From: a virus
Virus record (IMG/VR): IMGVR_UViG_3300024262_002274
Span: 1-28,600 of that record
Length of the DNA: 28,600 nt
Direction: 5' to 3' (one strand)
The position numbers and the translations under genes are program-made. The first letter of the stretch is position 1. Every line of letters begins with the position of its first letter. Positions 1,853 to 28,539 of the stretch are shown here, piece after piece. Below the pieces are notes generated by a model. That model saw only the letters and a list, made by a program, of their open reading frames with translations. It had not been told where the DNA came from and did not search any database.

Positions 1853-4800
1853 CTAATCCTTTATAAGCTCTAAGATAGTCTCTTCACAAGCGTATAATTT
1901 ATCAATACATCTGTTAATTGCGTCAGCTGTAACTACCTCATTAACACCTAAGTATATTTGATTTTTATGAAATGGCAATAATTTATATTCAGTAGGTGTA
2001 AACGATCTAACTTTCGGGGTTAATGTACTACCTTCTACAACAAAATCGAACTTTCCATTAATAGATCTACGGAAAGCTTCTAAATTGTCCCAGAATCTCG
2101 ATATAATTTTATTTAGAACCCAATCTTGTATATATTCATCTCGTTTAATATGTATAAACTCTGTAGTCCATTGTGGTACATCTTCTGAATCTAATCGAAG
2201 ATTTACAAGATCTAATTTATCAATATATTTTAAAATTGATAATGGAGTTGTTATATATAAATTACGGTTGTTATCATGATATATATTCGTGTATGAATTA
2301 TTATCTGTCGCGAATGTACCAACTATCACTCCATCATATCTAAGTTTGATTACTGATGATTCACAACATATATAAACAAATCCATCATCTTTACATAACG
2401 CTAATTTTTTGGGAATGCTAGTACTGAATGCAGAGATATAAAACATATCTTCAATCTCAAGATCTGATGTAAATTTAGATACTCCTGAATTTGTTAATAC
2501 ATAAACATAACCATCTAAATCTACTGCTACATCTAAAGGAGGATTTGCTGCAAAGCTTTCGTGTTGTAGTGTAGCTAACCACGAACCAGTTCTTGTGTAC
2601 TTCTTAACAACAGAATTACCAGTATCTGCAACCCATAAGCTATTTGAATGATCAATAAACAATCCTTTAGGTGATCTGAATTTAGATTTAGCATTATGAC
2701 TACCTAATCCACCCCAGTCATATAATAATAACCATTCTGATATATCAAAATTATAACTAAATACCATAATTCTGTTTCTACCAGAATCTAAAATATAAAT
2801 TCGATTATCAACTCCGAAGTTATTGTCTAATTCAACATCAACGACATTAACAAAATTATCACCAATACCTTTGTAAGTTCTTCTATCTATTTCTGTCGAT
2901 CTAACATCTGATGAAAGAATACGGACAGTTGTTGAATCTGACATAATAGCTATATTATCACCAACACCAGGAACCGATACTACAGAATAACTTGTATTGT
3001 TTGTAAATACATCAGATATAGCGGATACAGAATCTGTATGATTAGTATCTAAACCTTCTTGATTTACTCTCCAGTAAAATCTATCATCATAACCTTCATT
3101 CATTGTGCCTAACCAACCATAATATTCAGTAGGAGGTTTATCGTAAAGTTTTGATTTCGTATCAAGATATTGTAAATTAGAATTTAGACGATCAAACGAT
3201 TTGTTGATATTTTCGGATGTTATCCATTCATTTGGTGAGACTCTACATTCATCAGATCTATAAGGTAACACTAATTTTGTTACTTGATATACTCTGTCAA
3301 TAGAAATATCGAATATATTAAATTCTGGTAGCACTGTAATTATATTTTCAAATACTCTACTTTCATCTAATATAGTATTATTAGCGGAATATGAAGTCGT
3401 GAAACTTATGTTATATAACCCATTCTCTGTATATGACGTTGAATACGGTGCGGTCGTTTCAATTCGTTTAGATTTCGCTCTATCCGTCCATGTAAAGCTA
3501 TCGATGTTAGATACATACGGTACCAAATTTTCAAATGTTACTGAATCTCCAGTTAAAACAAATTTATTAGAAGTATATGTATATGGTTTTAATGGGTACG
3601 CAGATACTTGAGTATCTGGTACTGATATTGTTTGTTGTAGTATATTCCAATCATTAAATGGGTCGTTTTGATTGATTGGTGTAAAGAATGCATGAAGTTC
3701 TAGAGATACGTTAACTAAAGATGGATACATTTTATATATAGTCATGGTATCAAGACCTTTATCAGTTACCGTCAAACTGAAACTAGTTTCACTAGCTATT
3801 TCATTACTCACTATATTCCAATTATATGTTGATACTATCCATGTTGCTGTACTAGTGTTACTTATGTATACAGGAACCTCATCAGAGAATATCTGTAATA
3901 TATCGACTGTAAGAGGTTCAGCCGAAACTCCAATTAGAGGATTTGTAATGATCTCTGAATCACCTAAAAAATCATTAAAACTAACCATTTTAATTTTATC
4001 TTTTGTTTGTGATACATTAGTATTTGTTGTAGTAAAATTCTTGTATGTATGTAATAAACCAGTCGTATCATCGTAATACTGATTAGGCATACTTAACGGT
4101 AAATCATCATTAACAATCTTCATTGAAACGCCATGAGATGAAGTGGATTGATTAGATGTTATTAATGTATCAACAACTCTATCTCTTAATGTTATCGGTG
4201 CTGGTATTTTATTATCAATATACCAATAATAATAATCTGCAGTTGATTGTTGTAGCGCACTTAAGGTAAATTGTTCTGTATGACCGCTGCCCCATGCGCA
4301 CGGACCAGGAGTTAATGATGTTGAACATAATACTTCAACAAATGATTGTAAACCTGAATCCCATTTATACTGTGGAAATATATCAAACTCTGCAGTAGGT
4401 ATCACATCGACTATATTAAGTGTTTTGGAATCACCATATCTTCGCTGCGGTGCATAAATTGGATTAGAAGGTAAAAACTCACAACTCATACTAATTGTTA
4501 CTGATGTCCCGGATGCTCCTGGGTCTGGTAGATTATATACAAATGAACTAAACGAAGATGATTGATCAATATTAGGACTACCATTTGAGAATATGAAAGT
4601 ATATGTACCTGTATATTCTGCATCCATTTGTGTAGATAATACTGATCTATTATGTATTGTTATTGGCATTGGCCAAGATGGTATATCTGAGTAATCTCTG
4701 TATATATCGGATGTTGAAGATGATTCATAGTTAATACTAAAAATTGGATGTAAATTTGTATCTGTTATCCAATCACCAACATCTATCTGAACTGTATAAT

Positions 4801-6097
4801 CGTGTTCCGTTTCTGCTGCTGAGCATGTTATAAAGAATGACGAAACACGAGGTAATTCAGTTACAACTGGTGTAGTAATTCTTATATACAACGGATTAAT
4901 AACAGATACTGATTCAATATTACTCGGAATATACGGTGAAGAATTATTACTCTTAAACAATGTCATTCCATATGGGTTGCTCGGATCTGGAATATACGAT
5001 ATTAATTGATCTGGTTTAATTCTAAAGAACTGATCGTTGCCGTAGTAGGAAGTAAGACCATATATATTCAAAGTAAATAATGATTCAGGAGGATTTCCTA
5101 TAGTTTCTACTAAAGTACCTGATAGTGACGCTGCATCTTCCAAATATAAATACGGTTCAAATAGTTGATCATTAATCCATTCATCACCAAAATTATAACT
5201 ACTTAGATATACTTGATAACTTCCGATAAAATTTGTTGTTTCGATTCGAATACTACGTAAATCATCTGTGGACATTACCGGACCATAACCATTAACACTA
5301 TAATTCGAATCACCAGGAGCAGATACAGTTACGTTAGATGTATCAGGCGGTACTAATTTCCATCTTAATGTTTGTCCTGGTTGAAATGATTGAGTTGTAT
5401 TATCGTAAAAAGAGTCTGCATAAATAACATTAAGATCTTGATCTTGTAATGTAAATTTTGTTACTGGGTTTAGCACAAATTCTGTTTGAGTGGATTGTCT
5501 ATATGCAGAAAGAGGACTCGTGTCGTATATACTTGAAGTTATATAGAAGTGTTTACCATCAGCTCCGTCTGCTGATAGTGAGAATAGAGTTGCAGAAGGT
5601 GTAGATTCTATATCACCTAAAGTGTATGGTATTGCGGAAAGAAAAGCAGAGGAAGTTATTACATTAAATGTATCAGAATACATACTCCAAGTCATATAAG
5701 GTTCTGTTATATCATATAGATCTGTACCCGGAGATACTTGCTTCCAGTTTGCTGATAACTCAATTGATGTTAACGCTTCGTTTGTAACTATTAAATTAAT
5801 TGCTAATGGATAAAAATAAGCAGACATCGATTGTGTTTCTGTTACAGCAGATACTAAAATTGGATTATATGTTGTACCTGATATTGATATGTAATCAGTA
5901 TCGTTTGCTACAATCGGATATGACGCGCGCCATTCGAATGATGAAGCGGAATTTACAAAGTCTCCAATAACTATTCCGGAAGCATCTGATAGTTCTGTCG
6001 AAACTTCTTGAAATACATACCATTGTATATTCTCTCCTGGTAGATATGTATCTGCTGATACTGTGACAATCAAATCTGTTGTATATTCTACATTCAT
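1853..6097 (-). CDS. Large virion protein: Ig/PKD-like beta domains plus C-terminal NHL beta-propeller
   Basis: This 1414-residue protein starts at ATG 6097, just after the TAA of the upstream 779-residue gene (TAATATG junction). Residues about 1-1000 are a long series of Ser/Thr/Asn-rich beta segments with PKD/Ig-like spacing (phrases such as ENIQWYVF and DSVTFENLVP...FTWTD). Residues about 1093-1290 form NHL-type propeller blades: RIYILDSGRNRIMVF, PKGLFIDHSNSLWVADTGN, LDVAVDLDGYVYVLTNSG. The last 125 residues are helical and charged (IQDWVLNKIISRFWDNLEAF...CIDKLYACEETILELIKD) and may dock to the baseplate. No signal peptide or membrane segment is visible. It sits in a late unit with the 779-residue gene and the membrane protein. 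A role as a peripheral baseplate or receptor-binding protein is inferred from domains and position. Confidence 0.75.
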   Translation of the reverse strand: MNVEYTTDLIVTVSADTYLPGENIQWYVFQEVSTELSDASGIVIGDFVNSASSFEWRASYPIVANDTDYISISGTTYNPILVSAVTETQSMSAYFYPLAINLIVTNEALTSIELSANWKQVSPGTDLYDITEPYMTWSMYSDTFNVITSSAFLSAIPYTLGDIESTPSATLFSLSADGADGKHFYITSSIYDTSPLSAYRQSTQTEFVLNPVTKFTLQDQDLNVIYADSFYDNTTQSFQPGQTLRWKLVPPDTSNVTVSAPGDSNYSVNGYGPVMSTDDLRSIRIETTNFIGSYQVYLSSYNFGDEWINDQLFEPYLYLEDAASLSGTLVETIGNPPESLFTLNIYGLTSYYGNDQFFRIKPDQLISYIPDPSNPYGMTLFKSNNSSPYIPSNIESVSVINPLYIRITTPVVTELPRVSSFFITCSAAETEHDYTVQIDVGDWITDTNLHPIFSINYESSSTSDIYRDYSDIPSWPMPITIHNRSVLSTQMDAEYTGTYTFIFSNGSPNIDQSSSFSSFVYNLPDPGASGTSVTISMSCEFLPSNPIYAPQRRYGDSKTLNIVDVIPTAEFDIFPQYKWDSGLQSFVEVLCSTSLTPGPCAWGSGHTEQFTLSALQQSTADYYYWYIDNKIPAPITLRDRVVDTLITSNQSTSSHGVSMKIVNDDLPLSMPNQYYDDTTGLLHTYKNFTTTNTNVSQTKDKIKMVSFNDFLGDSEIITNPLIGVSAEPLTVDILQIFSDEVPVYISNTSTATWIVSTYNWNIVSNEIASETSFSLTVTDKGLDTMTIYKMYPSLVNVSLELHAFFTPINQNDPFNDWNILQQTISVPDTQVSAYPLKPYTYTSNKFVLTGDSVTFENLVPYVSNIDSFTWTDRAKSKRIETTAPYSTSYTENGLYNISFTTSYSANNTILDESRVFENIITVLPEFNIFDISIDRVYQVTKLVLPYRSDECRVSPNEWITSENINKSFDRLNSNLQYLDTKSKLYDKPPTEYYGWLGTMNEGYDDRFYWRVNQEGLDTNHTDSVSAISDVFTNNTSYSVVSVPGVGDNIAIMSDSTTVRILSSDVRSTEIDRRTYKGIGDNFVNVVDVELDNNFGVDNRIYILDSGRNRIMVFSYNFDISEWLLLYDWGGLGSHNAKSKFRSPKGLFIDHSNSLWVADTGNSVVKKYTRTGSWLATLQHESFAANPPLDVAVDLDGYVYVLTNSGVSKFTSDLEIEDMFYISAFSTSIPKKLALCKDDGFVYICCESSVIKLRYDGVIVGTFATDNNSYTNIYHDNNRNLYITTPLSILKYIDKLDLVNLRLDSEDVPQWTTEFIHIKRDEYIQDWVLNKIISRFWDNLEAFRRSINGKFDFVVEGSTLTPKVRSFTPTEYKLLPFHKNQIYLGVNEVVTADAINRCIDKLYACEETILELIKD

Positions 6098-6098
6098 A

Positions 6099-8438
6099 TT
6101 AATCCCATTTTATCTTGTATAGTTCTGTATATGCAGGAGATATTTTCTTAACAGTGTCACTGATAATATCTTCAATTACCTTACGCACTTCTAAGTCTGT
6201 AATATTTAAGCCAATCAATCGAATGTTAAAGTACTGAGATTTGGATCCAGGCATTTTAAATTTAAAAAATCGTTCAATCTCTTCTATATAATTCTGTAAT
6301 CCTGATGACATATTCCAATCAATATCCTCAAAATGATATTTGTTCATGTATATATGCCAAAGATCAGCATTAGTCAAAATACATTGATATATTCGAATAT
6401 CGTCAATAAATCCTGTTAAATGATAATTATCAAAAGATAATTCTTCTCCTAAAGTTAAAATTTTACCATTATCTGCTCCAATAGTTAAACTATTTTCATA
6501 TCTATAATATATTGGAGTACAAGGTGAAACAGTTAAAGTGTCTCTCTCAATACTATCTATATAAAATTTATAATCTCCAGTATATCCATCATATGTAAAG
6601 GAAAATAAATGCCATTCATTCGGTGCTAAAGCGCTTGTATCGAATGATAATGTTTGTTTACCGCAAATGGCAGCATATTGAGTACCTAAAAATACTGAAC
6701 TTTCTATTTTAGGTGTTTTATCTATTGGAATATAGTTAAACTTCCGATTCCAATCATAACTAGTAAAATTACTTGAATCTGGTAAAATATCAAAAACACT
6801 TAAACTCTTCTTTTTTAGTTTATTTCCATTTATGTCATATTTATATATCACTTGATCATCTCTAGAAGAAATCCATATTACATCTTCATATGTAGTGTTG
6901 ATTATTTCGTTTGTTAGAGATATATTTCGGACTTGAGATGTAGTTGGAGTTGATCCTGATAATAACAGTTCTCCATCTGTATTTACATTATAAAATTTAT
7001 TAGTATTATCTAAAATCCAAAATGTATCTCGACTATCTATTACTACGTCTGTGATGGTATTTGAATAAACTGGATTTATTGTATCATCTGCTAGCCATAA
7101 TGAATTCGCAGATACATACCAAGAAATATTATCGTTTGTTACTCCAAGATGAGAAACATCCATCCCTATAATAGTATTATTCAGATCCGCTTCTATTTTT
7201 GTGATTCCTGGATCTCCGGATTGAGTTGTTATATAACTACCATCTGATTTAAACCCAGAAATTTCACTGGTATTACTTTCTAACACCCAGATATTCTCAT
7301 CACTATCAAGTGTTAAATCTGCTAACTCTACACTCGAATCGAAGTAAACTGCTGATTCTATATTACCGTTAAAATCTACTTTATACAGATGCTTTAACCC
7401 TTCATATATACCGTTATCTAAAATCCATGTATATAAATCAGAAGTTATCTCACTTGCTATGGGAATACTATCACCTGGTAGTGAACGATTAAATAATACA
7501 TCAGCATCTACATTACCCTGTATTAAGGTTCCACTACTGCTAAACATTGAAAATGTTGGGTTATAGAATCCGTTATTATAACCAATGCTCCAACCACCAC
7601 GAAAATTCTTACTTAAAATATGATTACCTGATACATTATTCCAATCTTTGATTTTAGACCAGATTGAAACTGAAATTCTCTCCGTTAATTCATAATCTTC
7701 GTTATATAAAACACTTGCTGATTGATTATCTTGAAGATATAATGAAGTATCATTAGCGTTACTAACGCTTGTTGGATGTAGCATAGTTGGACTATATCTA
7801 TTGAGAATTGTTGTATTATCATAAGGAGATAAATCTACCGGATTTTGTGTCCAATCATTTAAATGTAACTTTAAATTACCTGAAGCTCCAGTTAATGAAT
7901 TTATTAGACTTTCATTTGATTCATCTCCGAGATGAAAGTATTTGTACCAAACCCCTGGATCGAGTGTCATAACTGAAGGTTCATCATATACAGAGTCTGT
8001 CGAACTAATATATAAAGCTGTTGTTGAATCTATCACACCTGGATTATACCAACGATCCATCCATACTACAGACGGATCGCCTGTGAATGAGCCTGACAAC
8101 CATGAGCACAACCAAATTCCTACTTGTGGTTGTGTTGAATTACCCCACCAAATATTCTTTTTATAGTTCGCTGTTTTCTTCCATATTTTATCTGAACTAT
8201 ATGGAGCTTCTCCTGCAATCGCACCAGCGATAACTAAGTTAGATGTAGATAGTGGTATAATTTCTGATGAATTAGGATAATGGAAATATGTAGTTTGATC
8301 CGCTTTTAATATCTGGAGAGTAGTATCTGCTTCAAATGCTAAGAACGGAGCTTGATACCCAAATTCTTGATTTGTTCCAGTAAATAATTGCTCATAATCT
8401 CGAAGATGAACAGCTCTAGGTTGGTATGTTATTATCAT
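6099..8438 (-). CDS. Virion protein with LamG-like domain split by a beta-propeller
   Basis: In this 779-residue protein, residues 62-120 contain a GAIAG...DKI module that also occurs three times in the 1582-residue protein. Residues about 225-310 look like the first half of a LamG/concanavalin-like domain (ISVSIWSKIKDW, HILSKNFRGGWSIGY). Residues about 310-550 are propeller-like repeats (LADLTLDSDENIWVLES, DVVIDSRDTFWILDNTNKFY, DVIWISSRDDQVIYKYD). Residues about 585-700 resume the LamG pattern (EWHLFSFTYDGYTGDYKFYI, NSLTIGADNG, FIDDIRIY). The C-terminal 80 residues are mixed helix/strand. The ATG at 8438 has no Shine-Dalgarno; a TAAATA late core lies 6 nt before it. LamG folds often bind glycans, so host-surface binding is a reasonable inference. 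Confidence 0.75.
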   Translation of the reverse strand: MIITYQPRAVHLRDYEQLFTGTNQEFGYQAPFLAFEADTTLQILKADQTTYFHYPNSSEIIPLSTSNLVIAGAIAGEAPYSSDKIWKKTANYKKNIWWGNSTQPQVGIWLCSWLSGSFTGDPSVVWMDRWYNPGVIDSTTALYISSTDSVYDEPSVMTLDPGVWYKYFHLGDESNESLINSLTGASGNLKLHLNDWTQNPVDLSPYDNTTILNRYSPTMLHPTSVSNANDTSLYLQDNQSASVLYNEDYELTERISVSIWSKIKDWNNVSGNHILSKNFRGGWSIGYNNGFYNPTFSMFSSSGTLIQGNVDADVLFNRSLPGDSIPIASEITSDLYTWILDNGIYEGLKHLYKVDFNGNIESAVYFDSSVELADLTLDSDENIWVLESNTSEISGFKSDGSYITTQSGDPGITKIEADLNNTIIGMDVSHLGVTNDNISWYVSANSLWLADDTINPVYSNTITDVVIDSRDTFWILDNTNKFYNVNTDGELLLSGSTPTTSQVRNISLTNEIINTTYEDVIWISSRDDQVIYKYDINGNKLKKKSLSVFDILPDSSNFTSYDWNRKFNYIPIDKTPKIESSVFLGTQYAAICGKQTLSFDTSALAPNEWHLFSFTYDGYTGDYKFYIDSIERDTLTVSPCTPIYYRYENSLTIGADNGKILTLGEELSFDNYHLTGFIDDIRIYQCILTNADLWHIYMNKYHFEDIDWNMSSGLQNYIEEIERFFKFKMPGSKSQYFNIRLIGLNITDLEVRKVIEDIISDTVKKISPAYTELYKIKWD

Positions 8439-8444
8439 TAAAAA

Positions 8445-8452
8445 TATTTATG
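8445..8452 (-). promoter_or_regulatory. T4-type late promoter core CATAAATA, 6 nt before the start codon
   Basis: The minus strand reads CATAAATA then TTTTTA then ATG. This matches the T4 late consensus TATAAATA at 7 of 8 positions. The usual initiation distance would place the RNA start at or next to the ATG, and no Shine-Dalgarno is present. It lies in the 72-nt gap between the 313- and 779-residue genes. No terminator hairpin was seen in that gap. Confidence 0.65.
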
Positions 8453-8510: not shown

Positions 8511-9452
8511 TTAATAACTCTTAACATTTTGTTCATACTCTGGAGTTAATACATTTTTTAGGTTTGCAAAATTGATATTAAATGAACCGATTTTGTTTTC
8601 GTCATTCAAATTAATTTGAGAATGGTATGGTAAATCTATAAGACGACTAAGATCTATACCAGAAATACAACGTTCTTCATATAACTCTAAATTAAAGTTG
8701 TTAGTTTTGTCTACTAAACTATTATAATAATGTATCCATGTTTGATCTCTAGTTAGACCATCTAGAGTAAATATTAAATTGAAATTATCAACATCAAATA
8801 TATAATTATTACTCATCGCATAATCGTCATCACTGTTCATTCCAATACAACGCATCGCTGATGTGACTGGACTATAACTCCAATATCTCTGTATTATATC
8901 AGCTCCGTACCCTGGTGTTGGAGTATCGAAATATGTAGTTATATATATTTGATTAAGTCTCGGTGAAAATATTTTAAATTGTTGAAGATCTATATTATCT
9001 AAATCAAGCGGGTCTGATAAAGTTAAATTATACGGCATAATTCTATCGACAGTGACATATTTATTTGTTCCATTTAAAAAGGAGTATGTACCGTTTTCAT
9101 TAGGAATAATGCGAAAGAATGTAGTTTCATCTACTTCTAAACCACTCAATATCAAGCTATTACCTAATGAAGATATATAAGATCCACCAAGATTGAAAGT
9201 TATATAAGTTCCTAAATCAGCATAATCAAATACCTTTTCTTCTGCAAAGTCAAAGAATGATCCAGCTGTAGATAAATAAAATATAGTTTGTTGATTAGCT
9301 GTTACGTCTCTTGCATATTGAAATATTGGATGGTGAATCATTCTATATCCATCTCTCCAATATGTCATTGTCGGCTTTAAATCAATATTTGAATCATATT
9401 GATATTCTGCAGAAAGTGGATACCATTGTGCTGCGCTAATCGATACTTGCAT
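8511..9452 (-). CDS. Virion-cluster protein of unknown function (possible beta-trefoil)
   Basis: The 313-residue protein has its ATG overlapping the TAA of the 1315-residue gene by one base (TAATG), with AGGAGAG as ribosome site, so the two are translationally coupled. The sequence is aromatic- and Asn-rich with beta character and no membrane segment. The stretch TTFFRIIPNENGTYSFLNG then NKYVTVD (about residues 112-138) resembles the repeating unit of fascin/ricin-type beta-trefoils, but I could not make out three clear units. C-terminal residues (about 270-313) are polar. Given its place between giant virion proteins in a late unit, it is probably a baseplate or fibre component or an adaptor. 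The specific role is not recognised. Confidence 0.65.
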   Translation of the reverse strand: MQVSISAAQWYPLSAEYQYDSNIDLKPTMTYWRDGYRMIHHPIFQYARDVTANQQTIFYLSTAGSFFDFAEEKVFDYADLGTYITFNLGGSYISSLGNSLILSGLEVDETTFFRIIPNENGTYSFLNGTNKYVTVDRIMPYNLTLSDPLDLDNIDLQQFKIFSPRLNQIYITTYFDTPTPGYGADIIQRYWSYSPVTSAMRCIGMNSDDDYAMSNNYIFDVDNFNLIFTLDGLTRDQTWIHYYNSLVDKTNNFNLELYEERCISGIDLSRLIDLPYHSQINLNDENKIGSFNINFANLKNVLTPEYEQNVKSY

Positions 9453-12400
9453 TATTTCTCTCCTGATAGTAGTACGGTATAAGTCGCATCATAACCTTCA
9501 CCTTCTAATACATATACAACATCATTATTTGTATTTTTGAATCTGCTTGAAATTAAATGTCTTGGTTCAATTAAATCTAGATTAGGATTCAATACAGGAC
9601 CAACTGCTTGACCTGGACATATTGAATTCGTATGTGTATTACATGCATATACAGTTAATGTTGGTGTAAAAGTTTGTGGTGCTACATCGTATTCATTAGT
9701 AAATGTATGTGAAATTACTTGATTTCTTGGATCTTCAGGATCTTCAAGGAATGCATTGATAGATAATAGAGTATTTCCGAGATTAGTCTCTCCTGTAAAT
9801 GGTGTTCGTGAAATAGTCTCGATCGGTGAACCATCTCCCCAATCATAATCAATACGACATATTGGAAATGAACCAGTAGTTGAGCAAGATGCTAGGAAAT
9901 ATAATGTGACCGGACTTACACCGCTAAGCTCTGTAGTACCGAATCCTGTTGTCGGAGAATCACTTATTTCATAGCAACAAGAAGGTGGATATTCATCAAC
10001 AAATACATAAAAATTACTAAAACTATCTACATATCTCGCACAACAATCTTGAGTTGCAGTATTACTAGCTTCAACACATAACGTAACATCATACACACCA
10101 GGCATTGTATATGTATGTTTAACGGTGTGATTAGTTTTATCCATTGTCCAGCATCCTGCATCAAAATTACCAGTATGAGATGTGGTTAGTATAGTTTCTT
10201 CGTTAGTATCGTTATCATAATAATCACCAAAGTTCCAATGATATGAACTGATTGGGAATGTATGAGCTTCCGAAGAATCTGTAAACCATACAGTCAAGTT
10301 TGGAGCATAACCAGATACGAAATTGTTACTTAAAGTCCATATTGGATCTGGTACTGGCTCTAGAATAGTAGATGCAGCAACGCCTCTAGTATCATCAGAG
10401 TAATTCGCAGGTACTGTTTGTGCACTTATTGCCCAGAAATTAGCAAACGGTTCAAATTCCTTCACACATAATAATTGTGTCCATGTATAAGGTGTTCCAG
10501 ATAAATCTGCGTTAAGAGTATCTGTTGTACTTGCTTGATTATACATTGTAAAGCTGTACTCACCGTATCTATATAATTTAGTAAGTTGCTCTATTCTACT
10601 ATTTACACCTCTTGAATCACTGTTAACAGTATCTTTCGGTAAAAAGCCTTCTGAAAGTGGTATTTCGAAACTAGATGTAAGTTTCCATTTTGTGTCTGTT
10701 ACTGGAGTCCAATCTGCAAAATCATCCGAATATATGCATGTAGTACTGACATCAAAATATAAAGTATCTACAGGATATGTTCTAGCTATACTTCTATCCC
10801 AAAAAGTAGCACTTAACGGATCTGTTCCCCAAGCAATTGTATTTTGTTTATAAAAATCTACGTTACTATAGTTAATTGATTTTACAAAACGAGAAGTAGG
10901 TTTCCATGAAATTGGACAACTAAACCAGTCATATCTAACTGCAGATAATTCAACATGATTAATCCAAAATCTCGCTGTTGGCCATCTCTCTTTAACCGCA
11001 ATGTCTACGTTATTACTATATGCATTAACTGGTGCGAATGTATATGGATCTAAATTCGATTCTACATACACTAATGGATTAAATTCTCCATTAATGTTTC
11101 GTGAATCATTAAACTCTAATCCTGATAAACCTATCTTACTAGTATCATTGTAAACATGTTCGTGACTTAGAGATGTTATATAATCTGCGTTTGCGTTGTA
11201 TAATAAATTTGTTGTATATAAAGTAGAGACTGTATTTGAAACTGTATTACCATAATCATACTCGTAATCATCAACATTAAAATCCCAACTAGAAACAATA
11301 AATGAACCTGGATTGACTGTAGCGGATAGATTCACAGTTAATTCATCGAACGCTGTAGCTTGTAAATTATTAACAGTTTGTTTATCCTCCCAATAATAAC
11401 CTACTTCATTTAATCCATTTGAATGCTTTGTATCTTCAATTTTTAAATCTACTGTTATTGGAGTTGTACCTGGATGTCCATAACTCGGTGGAGCTGGTAC
11501 ATACTCTAGCGATCCGATAAGAATACTACCGGTAAAGTCAGAATACATATAAGAATAGTTTACGTTATTATAAACATTACTTGTAAAGTCTTTTACTCTT
11601 GTTGTTCCAGTATGACCGTTATAAGTTTCAGTATATGATGAATCATAATTAATAAACCCTGGATATACTTCTCTACCTATTGTATTTGCTGAATCACTAC
11701 CATATAAAGTATTCCATGCATTTACATTAGCTAACTGTATTTCTGTGGTTGCACCTTTAACTTTTAATCCATAACGATGTGTTACAGATCCGTTAATACC
11801 GTAAACATGTAGATCTGGAGATTCAGTATAGCTTGCCCATTCGGCTGAAACAGTTGGATTCATTGTATCAGTGTCACGTGTCAAGAACCAATCGATTTCT
11901 TTTGTATTTGTAGATTGCGCCCACCATCTATCCATCTCTACATTCGGATATCTACATTCTCCTTGTAATGGGAAATTTGTTCCATCTTCCATATGATATA
12001 CTTTTTTAAGTAATCTACCTGCGCACCAAATATTATTTTCTGCGTCAACACCTACACCGTAAATCCCTGCACCAAGATTTTTTTGGCTTTTATTCCCAGA
12101 GAATCCATGAGAAGATGGAATATATTCAGCTCTACTTAAATATCTAGAGGATGAACCTCCAGCATATACATTATATCTATCACTGAGATTAGGATATAAA
12201 TTAGGTATGTCAGTAGTAACACCGCGATTCTGGCCGGCACTGTACATAATATTAGATACAGAATATAAACCTCCATTAGCTGCTATCCATGTCATTCGAC
12301 CAGAATTCCACGAAACACGGAATACAGCTCCGTCAGGACCGGTACACAAACCATAATGATCTTCGTTGCTACCTGCTGCTTTAAAATCGTATGATCCTTT

Positions 12401-13399
12401 ATATTTCCATCCAGTCGACGTATTCTTAAATTTATAAACATCAGTTAGATTCTCTGACCACCACATTATAGTCGGATCATTAGCTTGTACAGTCATTCCA
12501 TAGCATTGACCATTGCCCATGTCTACTCTTTTAGATGCGTTAAAATTACCCTGAGCTGATTGTGAACATTCAACTAAATCACCATCACCATAACCACCAG
12601 CCATCGCATTACCTGTTGGCGACGTTGCTGCAAGACCTACACCGTTATCCGACGTACTATTAAGTTTAAATGTTGCTTCTAATGCTCCATCTCTACCACG
12701 ACATCTACAAACATAAGCTGGATTACTTCTACTTGATACCCAAACATTACCTCCTATACCATTTACACCTCTATGAGCTTCGTCTTCAAATATTCTATTT
12801 ACATCTACTGATGTTCTAGATACTTTGTTGCACAATCCACCACCTGGTTTTCTTAAATTAGTTTCCCAAACTACTGCGCCTTCTAAATGTAAAATATTAT
12901 GTCGTACTTGTGTTTTCGTAGATGTACATTTTATTTTACTATCCTCTGTATGAGAAGTGACTACATAAGGAATTGAATCAAATTGACTACCTTCTGTAAA
13001 CGATCTGATAGCATAATGAATTGCTCGTTGTGAATAATATATCTCATCCAGCAACTGCTTATCATTAGCTACATCTGATGTATATCCATAAATTCCATGT
13101 AGTGTATTTAACGCGGTACCATCATAAAAGGATGATAAATCATCTACAAATTCCGTAATTGCAGATACTTCTTCTGTTATAGTTTCAATTAAATAATCGT
13201 TACTTAATGTGAAATTTGACCCATCTTCACCAATATCAGCGATATAGCGATATATTTCTAATTTTGGATATTCGAGCGAAGAGCTTGGTACATTTATATT
13301 TAATGTAAATTGATGTTCCGAGGATCCACCCGGTCTCGCATCTTTTACAGATGCAGGCTCAACACTTGTTATTTCGGCGATGTTAAAGTAATCTGACAT
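9452..13399 (-). CDS. Large virion protein: propeller-like region plus PKD domains
   Basis: In this 1315-residue protein, residues about 1-160 are a non-repetitive N-terminal domain. Residues about 165-475 look like a beta-propeller (GGNVWVSSRSNPAYVCRC, GLCTGPDGAVFRVSWNSG, YGVGVDAENNIWCAGR). At least two C-terminal PKD domains are visible: about 1033-1115 (ISSYHWNFGDYYDND... then VKHTYTMPGVYDVTLCVEAS) and about 1161-1253 (CRIDYDWGDGSP... then VISHTF). The protein is unusually cysteine-rich for a phage tail protein, with adjacent pairs DCCAR and SCCYE. Start ATG 13399 has no nearby Shine-Dalgarno, but a TAAATA late core ends 6 nt upstream. It is co-transcribed with the 313-residue gene. PKD and propeller folds point to protein or glycan contact at the cell surface. 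Confidence 0.75.
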   Translation of the reverse strand: MSDYFNIAEITSVEPASVKDARPGGSSEHQFTLNINVPSSSLEYPKLEIYRYIADIGEDGSNFTLSNDYLIETITEEVSAITEFVDDLSSFYDGTALNTLHGIYGYTSDVANDKQLLDEIYYSQRAIHYAIRSFTEGSQFDSIPYVVTSHTEDSKIKCTSTKTQVRHNILHLEGAVVWETNLRKPGGGLCNKVSRTSVDVNRIFEDEAHRGVNGIGGNVWVSSRSNPAYVCRCRGRDGALEATFKLNSTSDNGVGLAATSPTGNAMAGGYGDGDLVECSQSAQGNFNASKRVDMGNGQCYGMTVQANDPTIMWWSENLTDVYKFKNTSTGWKYKGSYDFKAAGSNEDHYGLCTGPDGAVFRVSWNSGRMTWIAANGGLYSVSNIMYSAGQNRGVTTDIPNLYPNLSDRYNVYAGGSSSRYLSRAEYIPSSHGFSGNKSQKNLGAGIYGVGVDAENNIWCAGRLLKKVYHMEDGTNFPLQGECRYPNVEMDRWWAQSTNTKEIDWFLTRDTDTMNPTVSAEWASYTESPDLHVYGINGSVTHRYGLKVKGATTEIQLANVNAWNTLYGSDSANTIGREVYPGFINYDSSYTETYNGHTGTTRVKDFTSNVYNNVNYSYMYSDFTGSILIGSLEYVPAPPSYGHPGTTPITVDLKIEDTKHSNGLNEVGYYWEDKQTVNNLQATAFDELTVNLSATVNPGSFIVSSWDFNVDDYEYDYGNTVSNTVSTLYTTNLLYNANADYITSLSHEHVYNDTSKIGLSGLEFNDSRNINGEFNPLVYVESNLDPYTFAPVNAYSNNVDIAVKERWPTARFWINHVELSAVRYDWFSCPISWKPTSRFVKSINYSNVDFYKQNTIAWGTDPLSATFWDRSIARTYPVDTLYFDVSTTCIYSDDFADWTPVTDTKWKLTSSFEIPLSEGFLPKDTVNSDSRGVNSRIEQLTKLYRYGEYSFTMYNQASTTDTLNADLSGTPYTWTQLLCVKEFEPFANFWAISAQTVPANYSDDTRGVAASTILEPVPDPIWTLSNNFVSGYAPNLTVWFTDSSEAHTFPISSYHWNFGDYYDNDTNEETILTTSHTGNFDAGCWTMDKTNHTVKHTYTMPGVYDVTLCVEASNTATQDCCARYVDSFSNFYVFVDEYPPSCCYEISDSPTTGFGTTELSGVSPVTLYFLASCSTTGSFPICRIDYDWGDGSPIETISRTPFTGETNLGNTLLSINAFLEDPEDPRNQVISHTFTNEYDVAPQTFTPTLTVYACNTHTNSICPGQAVGPVLNPNLDLIEPRHLISSRFKNTNNDVVYVLEGEGYDATYTVLLSGEK

Positions 13400-13405
13400 T
13401 TATAA

Positions 13406-13413
13406 TATTTACT
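13406..13413 (-). promoter_or_regulatory. Late promoter-like core AGTAAATA, 6 nt before the start codon
   Basis: The minus strand reads AGTAAATA, then TTATAA, then ATG at 13399. TAAATA (13411-13406) lies exactly 6 nt from the ATG, the same spacing as at 8438. A GGAG is present but 14 bases upstream of the ATG, overlapping the promoter core, so it is unlikely to act as a ribosome site. The motif lies in the 29-nt gap after the 1582-residue gene. Confidence 0.5.
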
Positions 13414-18178: not shown

Positions 18179-21100
18179 TTACTCCTCTATTAATCCTAAT
18201 CCCTTATGCAAAACATAACTAATCATTTTCTCTACAGCTTCTCCGGAACCATACCATTCATCTAAGCTCGATGCATGCTCATTTAATGTAGTATTCTTAT
18301 CATCCCAATTGATAACTCCTGCAACCTGTTCGTCACATGAACTACCAATAAAATCAAAGAAACAAAAACGATTACGTACTTGCTGAAAATCTTCATAACT
18401 CGGTTCACGTGTTGCATTATATAAATTCGGTAACAACCATGTATAATTCGTTGATAACGGATATATTAATGTTTCTGTTGAAACTGTACATAATTCATAA
18501 CAATTTGTTGTATATTGAGATAGATCTGTACTTCCGACATCAGTCACAAGCTCGAAGTGTGGTCCTGTTGTATAATAATCTGGTGGTAACGAAGCTGGTG
18601 GATTCTCTACTGCACCTCCAATACGACCTGTAGTATTATAAGCTGTTAATACCTTACCAGTATTTAGTGTCATAAGCATTACATAGTCAGTATAATTCCA
18701 GTAATAATACCAACCACAAAATAAATCTACATCAATTGTATAATTCATTGGAATGTTTAATCCTGTAATATTTGAAGTAAATCCAGATAGTAACGTATTA
18801 GGAGTCTCTCCTTGTAGTAATGCTGCATCTCCATAATCATCCCAATCTAATAACACACGCTGCTCGTCTCGAATCACATACGAAGATGTTGGTGATGTGG
18901 CTGTTATTCTATAATCATCATCCCATTGTGTTTTACCTGAAAGATAAATGCTAGTAACGTACGGTTCTTGGTGATCTAAAATTGAAGTTGGAATGATTAA
19001 ATCAAATTGTTTTTCTAAAAACTTATCCATTGTTATAAATGGTACATCTGCTGTGACCATATAAGTTGATGCTTCAAATAATGATCCTCTATTACCTGCA
19101 TGTAAATGACCACAACGTTGGCATAGACTTTCGATAGCTACTGGTTGTGTACCAGATAATGCTGTTCGATATTCGTTTTGAATATTATAAGTACAATTAC
19201 ATCTTGTTCCCCATAATTTCTGTTGATTGATTGAGAAGATATCCATTAATCGTCTAAGTTCTAGAGGATATGCTAATCCATAATCATCGATTGGTACATC
19301 TGTCTTTGATGCTAAATCATAAATTTGACTAACATTACATTCTTCTATATCTGCTCTATTTTTAGTGAAGTTAGCTATACGTTCATATGACTGACGACCA
19401 TATGCTTGTCCAAACGTAGAATCTTCATCTCCCCATAGCGAGTGCATATATTCATCCCACAATACAGAATTATTGTTAATGTGCGGAGAACGTGCGAATG
19501 AATGGATATAGCTACTAGCATCCCAGCTCTCATTAAATCTTCTTATCTCTAATCCAGTATAATCTAGAACATCGAATACTGTACTTTGACCTTCAATACT
19601 CGCTCCTGAAATACTTGATGTTTCTGATAATAACGTGCCTATGTTATATTTACGTTGCCATCTATTACCAGACCAATCACCAAACGCTTGAGCAGATTTA
19701 TTATATTGATCTGTATCGACTGTATTAAGATCTGGATAATTATAAAAAGCATAATCATTGTTAGGTGTAATATCAGCCATGAAAGTTAATACATCATTCG
19801 AAATACGATACAATTTATTTTCAACTGAATTAATAATATATACATTATCAAATGAATCAGTGCATATACCTTCTAAAGCATTATATTCTAATTTCTCTGT
19901 ATCTGCCCAACTAGGCACTGGTAGAGTACCTACTGTAAATTCTGTTTTTACTCCTGCTGATGTAAACTTAGTTACTGTATTCCAATCTGAAGTTATCCAT
20001 AAATTTTCTTTTGTATCAATTGTAATATATTCTGGATGAACAGCAGAATAAGATGACATTAGCGTTCCTGTTGTATTACTATACAATTGAATATCACCTA
20101 ATCTATAATCTGGACCTGAATGATATGTTAATGTCACCCAAACATTGTTGTTACGGCTTACGTGAAGATCCATTGGATTAGAGCAAGTAGGTAATGTTAT
20201 TGTATCTAATAGTGCACCGTTTTGATCATAGTAATATAAACTACTTGAAAGTGAATTGGTATATGATATCCAAACATTACTATCCATATCAGTTTCTACT
20301 AATGTTGGCTTGAATGTATTATCGATACCTTCTGGTACTGGTGGCTCATCTTGACCTACAACTAATGCAAATGATCCGTCTGTTGTGCTCATTTTTAATG
20401 CAGAGCCAGAATCGAAAAATGATACCCATAGATAACCAGTACCATCTAAACTAATACCTGCTGGTGTTTCACCAATTGTACTTACATCGAATGATGATAG
20501 TAAATCACCTTCAACAGAAAATTTGTATATCTTATCACTCTCTGCGTCTGATGCCCAGAAGTTGTAACTTGGTTCAATAGCTATACCGTAAATACCGCCG
20601 AATCCTGATAGTGACATTCCATCTACTGCCGTTACTTGTAGTTGTGTTATATCGTAATTTTGTGAAATAGTAGGATCCATTAATTGTTCTTCTGCAAGAT
20701 ATTGAATAGCAGTTGCAGATATTGAACTATTAACACAATCGATATCATATCTATTAATTGTGTTATTTTCTGGATTTGATATCCATAGATAATAATCATA
20801 AGACCAAACTTTATTAAAATAAGCAACACCACTCGTTTGAATTGTTGTATTTAAAATCTCTTCTGCTACTACAACTGAACTCTTTACAAACCCTTGCTGA
20901 TCGAAATCTTGCGCATCATATGCTGATAAGAACAATTGACCTGAAGGCGGAGTCCATACAAGATCTGTTGATGATGGCATAATAGACAAACTACGCACAA
21001 TTGAACCACCTAAATTTCCATAATAATTACTTACTGGAACATCGAACGCTATAGGAGAATCTGTATCTAGGTCAATGGTAATATATGAAGAGAGTGCAGC

Positions 21101-21712
21101 TATATTACCTTGTACAGTTATGATATGAGGTATAGTCGCATCCTTCCAATAAAAATCTACTAAATCGAAAACACCATTACGAGTCACTCTTAACGCGTTT
21201 GGAGTTGTTCCATTAATAAAATATGGTGATACAGCGCCAACTTTACTATTCGAATAACCTGCTGATGCATTACTACAATTCTGACTATCATAATAAACAG
21301 GATAATCGGCATAATCAACAATAGCCCAAATTAATACTGGACTACATTCAATCGTAGATCTATCATCGATGTAATAAAATTCTGCTGATGCTCTAACACC
21401 AATAGTTTCACCCGATGAGCCGAGAACTAAAGTCGATGCGGTTGGTGTAATTGATTCAATAAAATTACCATCTACATCTGTAAATCTCCATTGTGCTAAT
21501 AATCTTGACCATTTATTTTGAGGTCTTTGGTATGGAGCAGAACGAGAGTTTTGTGCATACAGATGTACAGTATGAGGAAATATATCTTCACTACTTAAAT
21601 GTAAAGTAAATGGAGTTTGATTCCTAATACCAGCATAACCTGGAACTGGTGCTGTTAATTGTAGTGCTACAGGATAATTAACAGCACTTTGTAGTACAAA
21701 ATTTGTTGTCAT
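18179..21712 (-). CDS. Large baseplate-associated protein with NHL-like propeller and Cys-rich motif
   Basis: The 1177-residue protein follows gp6 with a 1-nt gap (TAATATG). Residues about 1-290 are a beta-rich N-terminal region. Residues about 295-650 are propeller blades (IYGIAIEPSYNFWASDAESDKIYKF, AGISLDGTGYLWVSFFDSGSA, MDLHVSRNNNVWVTL, ITIDTKENLWITSDWNTVTKF). Residues 790-880 contain a conserved-looking core (YPLELRRLMDIFSINQQKLWG) followed by C838-x-C840 and C864-x2-C867-x-H869, a metal-site-like arrangement. The C-terminus (FCFFDFIGSSCDEQ... to HKGLGLIEE) is mixed. The gene order gp25-gp6-large protein matches baseplate-wedge gene order in T4-like phages, so a wedge component in the gp7 position is plausible. 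Orthology is not shown. Confidence 0.65.
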   Translation of the reverse strand: MTTNFVLQSAVNYPVALQLTAPVPGYAGIRNQTPFTLHLSSEDIFPHTVHLYAQNSRSAPYQRPQNKWSRLLAQWRFTDVDGNFIESITPTASTLVLGSSGETIGVRASAEFYYIDDRSTIECSPVLIWAIVDYADYPVYYDSQNCSNASAGYSNSKVGAVSPYFINGTTPNALRVTRNGVFDLVDFYWKDATIPHIITVQGNIAALSSYITIDLDTDSPIAFDVPVSNYYGNLGGSIVRSLSIMPSSTDLVWTPPSGQLFLSAYDAQDFDQQGFVKSSVVVAEEILNTTIQTSGVAYFNKVWSYDYYLWISNPENNTINRYDIDCVNSSISATAIQYLAEEQLMDPTISQNYDITQLQVTAVDGMSLSGFGGIYGIAIEPSYNFWASDAESDKIYKFSVEGDLLSSFDVSTIGETPAGISLDGTGYLWVSFFDSGSALKMSTTDGSFALVVGQDEPPVPEGIDNTFKPTLVETDMDSNVWISYTNSLSSSLYYYDQNGALLDTITLPTCSNPMDLHVSRNNNVWVTLTYHSGPDYRLGDIQLYSNTTGTLMSSYSAVHPEYITIDTKENLWITSDWNTVTKFTSAGVKTEFTVGTLPVPSWADTEKLEYNALEGICTDSFDNVYIINSVENKLYRISNDVLTFMADITPNNDYAFYNYPDLNTVDTDQYNKSAQAFGDWSGNRWQRKYNIGTLLSETSSISGASIEGQSTVFDVLDYTGLEIRRFNESWDASSYIHSFARSPHINNNSVLWDEYMHSLWGDEDSTFGQAYGRQSYERIANFTKNRADIEECNVSQIYDLASKTDVPIDDYGLAYPLELRRLMDIFSINQQKLWGTRCNCTYNIQNEYRTALSGTQPVAIESLCQRCGHLHAGNRGSLFEASTYMVTADVPFITMDKFLEKQFDLIIPTSILDHQEPYVTSIYLSGKTQWDDDYRITATSPTSSYVIRDEQRVLLDWDDYGDAALLQGETPNTLLSGFTSNITGLNIPMNYTIDVDLFCGWYYYWNYTDYVMLMTLNTGKVLTAYNTTGRIGGAVENPPASLPPDYYTTGPHFELVTDVGSTDLSQYTTNCYELCTVSTETLIYPLSTNYTWLLPNLYNATREPSYEDFQQVRNRFCFFDFIGSSCDEQVAGVINWDDKNTTLNEHASSLDEWYGSGEAVEKMISYVLHKGLGLIEE

Positions 21713-21713
21713 A

Positions 21714-23546
21714 TTAATACTCTATTGTTTGATAAATTGTTGATTCAGATTCCACTACAATCTTTTCAGTAAAGTGTTCTCTGTCATTTAAGAATAAGAA
21801 TTTAAAATACTCTTGTGCTGTGTTCTTTGCTGTTAGAACTCTATCTGTTGGATATGTTGGGTTCCATATTAACATAGATAATCCATTATATCGAATACTA
21901 GGATTATCTTTTCTTCTTGTATAGAATGTTTTTATACCGGCAATAGATAAAATATTATTTGTTAATGTACTAATATCTAACTCTTGTCCTAATGTTACCG
22001 AAGTTCTTGAGAAGTATGTTGTAAATATTTCATTAATATCAATTGCTATTGAATTATTATCTCTCTTTGAGTTTGGATCTTTTACAATATACAGTTCTGA
22101 GTTTTCAACATCATCTAATGTTCCATTTGCAGAACCGTCAGATGTTATACAAACACTAGCTGCAATATAAACTGGATCAAGAATAATAACTTCTGAAGTT
22201 AATGTTTTCACTGTTCGTAATGAAGACGTAATTAACTCTTTTTGAGATGCTGTTAATACAGATGTTGGATTCAATGTATTTGAAATTGTTTTTGGTACTA
22301 CAGTTAAATATACATTATTAAAATTACATGCATCTGCAAACAATACTTGATTATACACTAAATTAGATACATTATTAGGATCTTTCAATCCAACACTTTC
22401 ATAATAGTACTTGACTTGCTCTTGCAAATACTTCCAGTTATTAGCAACGCTAACGTCATGAATAAGATTCGCAAAGTTTGTTTTAACATAATTTTCATAA
22501 TCAACTTCTGTAACTAAACGATACTGTGAACGGTATATACCTGGAGCATTATCTCTGATCGATTCAATGTCTTCTTCTGCTTGATAATATGTTGATATGT
22601 TCTTATTGTCGAAGAATAAATCATTAGATTGTTTTGTATCAATGTAAATAAATTCATTATTACTTTGACTATTTAAATCCGCTAAGATAGTATTAAATGT
22701 TCTTGACGAGAACGGTACTACTTTTCTACCCTTCAAAGCTGATATACCAACTTCACCATCTGATCCATTTGATTCTAAATAATAAATAGCAACTGTATCA
22801 CCTGATGAAAGTTTTACACCATTAACACCATTACCGAATTTGATTTCATATTGCTTATTTTCGTTAAACCTAGCTTCATATCCGCTTTTGAACGCATCTT
22901 CAAGATACAATGATGGTACTTGTTCCCATTGACTCCATACATTATTGTGTTTTACATAAACATTTATATTGAAATGATCAACAATAACATTATCACCAGG
23001 TGCAAAGAAAACAAGCTCATTATCATTACCGGTTGCAGTATATAATGGATATTCTCTATATCTACCTTGATATAATAGTTTCTGTTTTGTTAGTTCATCT
23101 AATGTCTCTGTTAAGCCAAGTGCTGTAGTTTTAGCGAATACAATATCTTCATTAAATGAATACGAACGTGAACCATTCTCGATGTATGAATATCTTGGAA
23201 TTGTATATAATCCGGTGCTATAAGTCGGACCTGCAGTTAAATTAAAAGACAACGTAGATGTTTGACGACCGATTGGTTTATAATCTAGAACTTTAGTTAT
23301 GCGATTCATTGCATCATAAAGTGTTGTTTCAGAGAATTCTGAGTTTGTCGCTGTTTGATTCAAATAATATAATAATGTATTGAAGGTATAAGCTATAATT
23401 TCATTTATAGTTGAAATATAGGATCCTTCATAATTCTGATCTGTAAAGATGTTCGTTTCATTTAAACGGTCTTTGATGTACTGTTTTAATGTTAACGCAT
23501 CGAATGAAAGATATCCATCTTTCGGTATTTCAAATTCTGTTGCCAT
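21714..23546 (-). CDS. 6: Baseplate wedge subunit, T4 gp6-like
   Basis: The 610-residue protein is close to the T4 gp6 length of about 660. Start ATG 23546 is preceded by AAGGGG. The N-terminal part (FDALTLKQYIKDRLNETNIFTDQ, then SYISTINEIIAYTFNTLLYYLNQTATNSEFSETTLYDAMNRITKVLDYKP split over residues about 40-95) has the gp6/J-like pattern of a helical segment leading to DYKPIGRQTS. The central region GFGNGVNG-like phrase is KFGNGVNGVKLSSGDTVAIYY. RLVTEVDYENYVKTNFANLI (about 340-360) matches the 'TxxDYE' region of baseplate J-type proteins. In T4, gp6 forms the inner ring that holds the six wedges together around the hub. It lies directly after gp25, its known partner in the wedge. Confidence 0.85.
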   Translation of the reverse strand: MATEFEIPKDGYLSFDALTLKQYIKDRLNETNIFTDQNYEGSYISTINEIIAYTFNTLLYYLNQTATNSEFSETTLYDAMNRITKVLDYKPIGRQTSTLSFNLTAGPTYSTGLYTIPRYSYIENGSRSYSFNEDIVFAKTTALGLTETLDELTKQKLLYQGRYREYPLYTATGNDNELVFFAPGDNVIVDHFNINVYVKHNNVWSQWEQVPSLYLEDAFKSGYEARFNENKQYEIKFGNGVNGVKLSSGDTVAIYYLESNGSDGEVGISALKGRKVVPFSSRTFNTILADLNSQSNNEFIYIDTKQSNDLFFDNKNISTYYQAEEDIESIRDNAPGIYRSQYRLVTEVDYENYVKTNFANLIHDVSVANNWKYLQEQVKYYYESVGLKDPNNVSNLVYNQVLFADACNFNNVYLTVVPKTISNTLNPTSVLTASQKELITSSLRTVKTLTSEVIILDPVYIAASVCITSDGSANGTLDDVENSELYIVKDPNSKRDNNSIAIDINEIFTTYFSRTSVTLGQELDISTLTNNILSIAGIKTFYTRRKDNPSIRYNGLSMLIWNPTYPTDRVLTAKNTAQEYFKFLFLNDREHFTEKIVVESESTIYQTIEY

Positions 23547-23558
23547 AACCTACCCCTT

Positions 23559-24035
23559 CTAAAATATATATCCATCTCTTGTTAAAATGCCCTCTAAGTT
23601 TAAAGGCTCTGTCAAGAACGGAACTGCTAAAACCATTGTAATCTCGTATTCATTACGATCGTGATGTCCAACAATATCTAATTTTGTCAAACTAACCCGT
23701 GGCTCCCATTTATCAATTGATGTTTGTATCTCTCTACCGATTCGACGACCTGAAGATTCACTGATTGGATCGAATACATATCTGCGGAGATCTGATCCAT
23801 ATTCAGGAAGTAGGAATCTTTCACCTGGGATTGTATTAAATAAGTTTGTTAGTGAGTTACGTATCGCATTTAAATCGAACGAAACAGCGACGTCACGACC
23901 ATTTCCAATTGTTTGGTTGAAATTAGTTGCTGCGCCTATGAGATTTTCAGAGAAATCTAGATGAAAATCTACATATGTATACTTCTCTTCATTGAGAGTA
24001 GTATTTTCTAGAGAGTTTAAGTTGATTGAGCTCAT
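23559..24035 (-). CDS. 25: Baseplate wedge subunit, T4 gp25-like (gpW/gp25 family)
   Basis: In this 158-residue protein, residues 56-90 (AIRNSLTNLFNTIPGERFLL, then PEYGSDLRRYVFDP) and W110-EPRV-114 are the family signature; the EPRV loop is nearly invariant in gp25 proteins. The fold resembles lysozyme but is structural. gp25 and gp6 together make the inner baseplate that triggers sheath contraction. The N-terminus (about 25 residues) extends beyond the usual start of the domain. The ATG at 24035 has no Shine-Dalgarno; a CATAAATA late core ends 10 nt upstream. A 12-nt gap separates it from gp6. It is the promoter-proximal gene of the long minus-strand structural cluster. Confidence 0.9.
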   Translation of the reverse strand: MSSINLNSLENTTLNEEKYTYVDFHLDFSENLIGAATNFNQTIGNGRDVAVSFDLNAIRNSLTNLFNTIPGERFLLPEYGSDLRRYVFDPISESSGRRIGREIQTSIDKWEPRVSLTKLDIVGHHDRNEYEITMVLAVPFLTEPLNLEGILTRDGYIF

Positions 24036-24039
24036 TTTA

Positions 24040-24053
24040 TATAAATATTTATG
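24040..24053. promoter_or_regulatory. Bidirectional palindromic late promoter between gp25 and the 307-residue gene
   Basis: ATAAATATTTAT is a perfect palindrome. The plus strand reads TATAAATA (24040-24047), an exact T4 late consensus, and faces the 24085 gene. The minus strand reads CATAAATA (24053-24046) and faces gp25. Both genes point away from it. A single site could therefore drive both, though occupancy in one direction would exclude the other. Confidence 0.75.
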
Positions 24054-24084
24054 ACGTAGTTTATCAATTTAAAAGGAGAAATAT

Positions 24085-25008
24085 ATGAAGAATTTTAAAA
24101 GTCAGTTCGAAGTGATATGTGAAGAGACTCTTAGCACGTACCAGCAAGGCGGTTTCTTGCGCGGGGATTACGTATTACTTAAGAAAAACACACTTTCATG
24201 CGAAGCTCTAAAGCAAATATCAGAGCCAATGAAAGAGATAATTAAAACAGCAATTAAGAATAAAACTCGATTTCGTATCAGTTATATCAAGTCAGGTGCA
24301 CCGGAAGCTTTTAGTGGTCCAGTAGATGCACCGAATATCCCTTCGAAAACGATGTGGGCAGACGTAGTTATCGAGTATGCACCAGGAATGTGGAAGGATC
24401 CAATGACGTTACCTCTTTCAGTTTTAGAAAAGATGGATATCGAAGGTAATAACATTGCACCACCTATTCCAGATGAAATAAAACGTAGCAATGATAAAGA
24501 TGATACGAAAGAAGAAACTGATAGTGTTAGAGCTAAGCAAACTAAAAGTGAAGATGAAACAAGAAAACTGCCTACAAAGAATACAAAACTAAAAGAATCA
24601 TTTCAAATGCTTAGAGAGAACGATTCTATCTATGAAACTTACAAACCTTTAGAGGAAGGTATAATGGATACAGTTAGGTCTGTTGGTCAGAATGTAAAAG
24701 AAGGTTTTGATCTAAGCGCTATTGTTGATAGCCCAGAAAAACTTGCTAACTATATTTCGGATGTAAAAGCAGAGAGCTCAGAAAAAGCAAAAGCTTTGTT
24801 TGATAAACTACTTAATGGTGGTTATGGTGATCAACTTGAAGCTGCTGTTAAATTTCAATCCGAAATTGATAATGTAATGGATAATGCTCCGGAAGATATA
24901 CCAAATGAAGGTGCACCAGAAGAAACAACTCCTGATGCTACCTCCGAAACTGGTAGATTTGATGACGTTGAAAGTAAACCTAGAAGTACTGCTGATTATA
25001 TGAACTAA
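24085..25008 (+). CDS. Putative virion or assembly protein of unknown function
   Basis: The 307-residue protein has a start ATG with AAAGGAG eight bases upstream. Residues about 1-130 form a compact globular domain (FEVICEETLSTYQQGGFLRG, YVLLKK, WADVVIEYAPGMW). Residues about 130-175 are a highly charged, probably disordered linker rich in Asp, Glu and Lys. Residues about 176-307 carry two helical stretches (MDTVRSVGQNVKEGFDLSAI; SSEKAKALFDKLLNGGYGDQ) and an acidic Pro/Glu/Asp tail. There is no signal peptide or membrane segment. It has the only exact TATAAATA promoter in the window, so it should be expressed late. Its stop overlaps by 4 nt the stop of the convergent clamp-loader gene. I do not recognise the family. 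Confidence 0.8.
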   Translation: MKNFKSQFEVICEETLSTYQQGGFLRGDYVLLKKNTLSCEALKQISEPMKEIIKTAIKNKTRFRISYIKSGAPEAFSGPVDAPNIPSKTMWADVVIEYAPGMWKDPMTLPLSVLEKMDIEGNNIAPPIPDEIKRSNDKDDTKEETDSVRAKQTKSEDETRKLPTKNTKLKESFQMLRENDSIYETYKPLEEGIMDTVRSVGQNVKEGFDLSAIVDSPEKLANYISDVKAESSEKAKALFDKLLNGGYGDQLEAAVKFQSEIDNVMDNAPEDIPNEGAPEETTPDATSETGRFDDVESKPRSTADYMN

Positions 25009-27516: not shown

Positions 27517-27524
27517 TATAAGTA
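27517..27524 (+). promoter_or_regulatory. Late promoter-like core TATAAGTA, 5 nt before the terminase start
   Basis: TATAAGTA differs from the T4 late consensus TATAAATA at one position. It lies 5 nt from the ATG of the gp16-like gene, which has no Shine-Dalgarno sequence. The arrangement repeats that of the 8438, 13399 and 24035 start codons. Confidence 0.45.
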
Positions 27525-28511: not shown

Positions 28512-28531
28512 AATGTTCTCCTTGTTTTAAA

Positions 28532-28539
28532 TATTTAGC
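28532..28539 (-). promoter_or_regulatory. Late promoter-like motif upstream of the small frame-broken gene
   Basis: The minus strand reads GCTAAATATTTAAAACAAGG, with TAAATA at 28537-28532. The core CTAAATATTTAAAAC is identical to that at 859-845. Here a 20-nt leader with AAGGAG follows. Confidence 0.5.

Follow-up and report, generated by a model that had tools for sequence, protein, structure and literature searches.

Late transcription in phage T4 is a textbook system, for which leaders and Shine-Dalgarno (SD) sequences are assumed. Bacteria are well known to make leaderless mRNAs (review PMC9031893), with lambda cI as an example; 171 have been reported in Sinorhizobium meliloti (PMC3616915), and phage transcripts are often leaderless according to a phage paper (PMC5312081). 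No report of leaderless mRNAs arising from T4-type late promoters was found in the open-access literature.

The window analysed here, a whole virus record of 28.6 kb with a GC content of 33%, encodes, on its minus strand, a T4-like tail region with several very large structural-type genes, and also carries clamp loader, thymidylate synthase and dUTPase genes. The late promoters at the four sites listed below are very probably of the T4 type (gp55-dependent), positioned to begin RNA synthesis at the start codon itself or only a few bases ahead of it. The earlier note had pointed to four ATG codons lacking an SD, each with a late-promoter core just upstream; this is confirmed, with spacings of 6, 6, 10 and 5 nt. 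The corresponding features, together with the gp6 gene used below for comparisons, are the following:

6099 to 8438, minus strand: 779-aa protein with a laminin-G/concanavalin-like domain; SD-less, predicted near-leaderless
8445 to 8452, minus strand: late-promoter core CATAAATA, 6 nt before ATG 8438; +1 predicted at the base immediately preceding the A of the ATG
9452 to 13399, minus strand: 1315-aa protein with sub-threshold PKD-domain matches, within the tail/baseplate gene run; SD-less, predicted near-leaderless
13406 to 13413, minus strand: late-promoter core AGTAAATA, 6 nt before ATG 13399
21714 to 23546, minus strand: gp6, T4-like tail region
23559 to 24035, minus strand: gp25-like baseplate wedge subunit (phrog_261, 8e-25)
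24046 to 24053, minus strand: late-promoter core CATAAATA, 10 nt before gp25 ATG 24035; predicted leader of ~5 nt
27517 to 27524, plus strand: late-promoter core TATAAGTA, 5 nt before ATG 27530; predicted +1 on the A of the ATG
27530 to 28117, plus strand: 195-aa protein, possibly terminase small subunit (the homologue in relative G3 matches phrog_445 at 5e-4)

The cores differ from the consensus TATAAATA by one mismatch at three of the four sites and by two at the AGTAAATA site, and a usable SD is absent at all four starts. The GGAG located 12 nt from ATG 13399 overlaps the promoter core and would lie upstream of +1; moreover, it is missing from the orthologue in a 236-kb relative. In-frame stops are present 4, 1, 12 and 6 codons upstream of the starts at 8438, 13399, 24035 and 27530, respectively, with no alternative start in between, and no SD-bearing alternative start is found within the next 40 codons downstream at any of the four sites. 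These positions are therefore likely to be the starts. Regarding the gene classes proposed in the earlier note, the baseplate assignment holds for gp25, whereas that of terminase for the 27530 product is tentative: the protein's own HMM matches are not significant, and an assignment by synteny failed.

The T4 late box begins at position -13 (PMC2988020). It therefore ends at -6, with +1 six bases further on: at a spacing of 5 nt, +1 coincides with the A of the AUG, and at any shorter spacing it would fall past this A, cutting the start codon. In the proposed mechanism, a gp55-like late sigma factor together with the host RNA polymerase would bind the TATAAATA/TAARTA box (-13 to -6), and transcription would start 6 nt downstream of the box end; with a motif-to-ATG gap of 5-6 nt, the mRNA 5' end would be AUG or N-AUG, and ribosomes would read this SD-less mRNA in the leaderless manner (70S or 5'-AUG recognition). 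In addition, the phage would possess leadered late promoters, at least 15 nt upstream and provided with a standard SD. We infer the actual +1, the intracellular use of the promoters and the leaderless mode of translation, taking the leaderless 5' ends from promoter geometry. The genes at 8438, 13399 and 27530 are predicted to be leaderless to within ~1 nt, while gp25 (24035), with a predicted leader of ~5 nt, is better termed very short-leadered. The leaderless reading of the earlier note is, as a prediction, largely supported, with gp25 falling outside it.

Leadered late-type genes are found in the same window:

24040 to 24047, plus strand: consensus TATAAATA, 37 nt before ATG 24085, overlapping the gp25 promoter of the opposite strand
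24073 to 24078, plus strand: SD AAGGAG, serving the leadered gene 24085-25008
28532 to 28537, minus strand: TAAATA, 20 nt before ATG 28511, with AAGGAG in between (28518-28523); leadered late-type contrast

The earlier note had set three SD-bearing late-motif genes, starting at 786, 24085 and 28511, against the four SD-less starts. The latter two do combine the motif with AAGGAG, and the orthologue of the 24085 gene in the 236-kb relative carries the motif at 15 nt together with AGGAG. The start at 786 has a good SD and no TAAATA within 60 nt, and is therefore invalid as a late-motif contrast. At 24040-24053, the two divergent late cores, for gp25 (minus strand) and the leadered 24085 gene (plus strand), overlap in the near-palindrome TATAAATATTTATG; the counterpart in the 236-kb relative, CATATAAATATTTATATG at 6456-6473, is fully palindromic. 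Elsewhere in the window, 856-1851 encodes a DUF401-type membrane protein (PF04165, 6e-9) that also occurs in a few Synechococcus phages (phrog_14035) and is possibly a host-derived gene. The thymidylate synthase ORF (25934-26644) and the dUTPase ORF (26595-27077) share 50 nt (26595-26644); the true thymidylate synthase start may lie further downstream.

The SD-less starts could also be reached by translational coupling on transcripts that mainly begin further upstream, the near-ATG promoter being minor or unused. Coupling does exist in the window genome, since the genes at 1853-6097 and 18179-21712 start 1 nt past the preceding gene without an SD. Both genes are very large and structural in type, and they match beta-propellers of the NHL/SGL or Vgb-lyase-like kind. 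The four starts, however, are preceded by a gap of at least ~30 nt or by a divergent gene, gp25 and 27530 opening divergent units, and the 5-6 nt placement across many genes and lineages would need another reason. We consider this explanation improbable.

Compared with dinucleotide shuffles of the window, TAARTA lies 5-10 nt upstream of 4 of the 17 starts against 0.32 expected (p ~5e-4, for a spacing range picked after the sites had been seen), and at 5-6 nt from 3 starts against 0.11 expected. Chance matches in DNA of 33% GC would fit the observation that the motif is overall no commoner than expected in the window (132 one-mismatch matches vs 148 expected), as well as the gene-caller-free count of motif-to-ATG distances over the whole window, which is flat and not significant, as AT-rich genes frequently contain the motif internally. 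The window by itself is thin evidence, and the relatives decide; they are needed since gene-free counting in the window alone gives no signal.

A gp6 search returned 80 uncultured loci and no close isolate, the best cyanophages being ~25% identical. The nearest long relative, G1, is the 236-kb genome mentioned above, with a gp6 74% identical to that of the window; this genome and six others were read whole, with genes called by a simple codon-score caller. The earlier note had proposed to look, against shuffled sequence, for an excess of the motif at 5-10 nt where SD scores are low; this check, run on whole relatives, was strongly passed. Start-anchored counts amount to 12 vs 0.77 expected in G1, 45 vs 3.2 in pooled SD-poor relatives and 11 vs 0.66 in the cultured Pelagibacter phage HTVC008M, values never reached in 200 shuffles; T4 and Syn9 give a count of 0. 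Chance is already disfavoured by the relatives, and its probability is negligible.

In G1, where the starts, as on the other uncultured contigs, are computed and not deposited, the TAAATA-to-ATG spacing is bimodal: exactly 5 nt in 10 genes and 6 nt in 2, none at 10-14 nt, and a second class at 15-24 nt with AAGGAG or AGGAG nearly always between motif and ATG. An SD is present in 1 of the 18 near-motif genes vs all 22 far-motif genes, the latter taken at 15-30 nt (Fisher 2e-10); SD and short spacing are thus anticorrelated, as predicted in the earlier note. Counted without any gene caller, ATGs at spacing 5 number 24 vs 7.3 expected. Recoded stops were considered as an explanation of the low coding density of G1 and rejected, as recoding yields no sizeable extra open frame. 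G1 (L092, L094, L095) also encodes ~40 tRNAs and a tmRNA whose tag is GDTELKMAA.

The SD-poor relatives, pooled, provide 487 ATG starts, of which 33 have an SD. TAARTA is counted 4, 1, 4, 3 and 0 times at 0-4 nt and 36, 37, 24, 10 and 24 times at 5-9 nt, in a pool whose orthologous starts are not fully independent; G1 and HTVC008M, for their part, each provide at least ten distinct genes. The abrupt rise at 5 nt appears to be a mechanistic signature. Near-motif genes sit at transcription-unit starts: 16 of 188 abut or overlap their neighbour (most others having a gap >4 nt), against 160 of 340 non-motif genes. If the motif were not a promoter but an AT-rich enhancer of translation, like those of SD-free bacteria, ribosome binding would account for its position; it does lie at the distance of a translation element and is anticorrelated with SD, and SDs are nearly lacking in some relatives. 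However, an enhancer would fit poorly with the hard edge at 5 nt, with the lower enrichment at 5-6 nt of other arrangements of the same six letters and with the placement at transcription-unit starts. Moreover, these genomes also contain the identical motif 15-30 nt upstream, followed by an SD before the ATG, and in T4 and Syn9 it lies at 20-29 nt. An enhancer role in place of a promoter is thus very improbable.

For the near-ATG late promoters favoured here, the start codons at 5-6 nt are 23 ATG and 0 GTG in SD-rich genomes vs 73 ATG and 8 GTG in SD-poor ones. In eleven loci (L058, L059, L060, L062, L064, L066, L069, L073, L074, L078 and L081) gp25 has a GTG exactly 5 nt past TAARTA, and leaderless GUG starts are possible for gp25 there. 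When the 5-6 nt cases are aligned, none of the 10 bases preceding the box is strongly conserved, and no conserved -35 element is observed. Bacteroidota-type TAnnTTTG promoters show no peak near start codons in the SD-poor relatives; the actinophage marker WhiB is absent from 17 relatives, and a gp6 search of 84,980 bacterial and archaeal genomes, carried out for the host, returned no relative.

Regarding the non-late genes with an upstream gap in SD-poor relatives (L106-L120, corresponding to G3, G5 and G6, and others), a sigma70-like TTGA-N-TAtaaT ends 5-9 nt before the ATG in 22 of 108 cases vs 1.8 expected, so that early/middle genes of these relatives may be leaderless too. In the gp6 tree, the SD-rich group including the window forms one clade (99/91) nested among SD-poor relatives, with a long outgroup branch and the direction of change not fixed. 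The chances are about even that this T4-like clade expresses most genes, early and late, from leaderless mRNAs, and that the sub-lineage of the window may have given some of its late genes SD leaders again, resulting in a two-mode late programme.

Among the isolates, HTVC008M has ten genes with the motif at exactly 5 nt, nine of them without an SD, and a leadered class with the motif at 18-21 nt and an SD. Its deposited annotation gives identical starts for gp25, head closure, DNA end protector, tail tube cap and others; the gene caller is therefore not the source of the pattern. Both gp55 and gp45 homologues are present in HTVC008M. No gp55 was found within the 28.6-kb window fragment, and gp55 homologues occur in the relatives G1 (2.6e-10), G3 and G5; a gp45-like clamp is found in G5 and none was found in G1. 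Putative late-promoter control of virion genes is observed for gp25 in the window, and for gp25, head closure, tail tube cap and others in HTVC008M. In T4 and Syn9, TAAATA lies mainly 20-29 nt before the ATG, with no case at 5-6 nt; ten T4 motif matches at spacing 5 were discarded, as they do not precede called starts. The near class (5-6 nt) is absent from phiM12 and ZPAH1, and ACP17 and RHph_I1_18 show two or three near-class cases, all SD-less, one being the gp25 of RHph_I1_18.

Conservation differs among the four window sites. At 13399, the 6 nt spacing without SD is kept in G1. The orthologues of 27530 have spacings of 6 nt in L006 and L051, 5 nt in L084, L011 and L015, within 5-7 nt in L021 and 10 nt in L008, while that of L080 is leadered. 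For gp25, ~40 distinct relatives carry the motif at 5-12 nt, nearly all without an SD, vs 23 nt and an SD in the two nearest relatives of the window, L051 and G1; the 10-nt spacing of the window gp25 at 24035, which falls within the 7-14 nt trough, therefore looks intermediate. The orthologues of 8438 have TAAATA at 8 nt in G6 and no motif in G1, which further qualifies the leaderless reading of the earlier note for this gene; on these comparisons, the 8438 promoter appears to be the least conserved of the four.

If confirmed, these predictions would mean that many aquatic T4-like phages enter late translation of tail and head genes by a route unlike that of the model phage. A late motif near the ATG also gives gene callers a start-site signal. 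In a survey of pelagimyophages, late-promoter prediction failed (PMC7029224), and the near-ATG geometry may explain this failed search with cyanophage rules. The cultured pair HTVC008M / Pelagibacter HTCC1062 makes the idea directly testable.

Of the closest known systems, the T4 late promoters (gp55/gp33/gp45) share with the window clade the TATAAATA box without a -35 element and the location before virion genes, gp55 homologues being present in relatives; unlike T4 and Syn9, where the box lies 20-29 nt before the ATG with a leader, the window clade adds a 5-6 nt class. The Far-T4 phages are likewise uncultivated, mostly freshwater T4 relatives, the window clade being placed by the gp6 tree only; the paper describing them mentions no promoter or leader feature, and T4 transcription core genes were undetected there (PMC4360716). 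HTVC008M resembles the window in having TAAATA exactly 5 nt before structural-gene starts alongside a leadered SD class, and differs in its gp6, only ~28% identical, and in its core, which runs on as TAAATAGT and not as TAAATATT or TAAGTAAT. With bacterial leaderless mRNAs, the window promoters have in common a core at a fixed short distance from the ATG and the lack of an SD; what sets them apart is the phage late-promoter type, the virion gene set and the presence of leadered late genes alongside.
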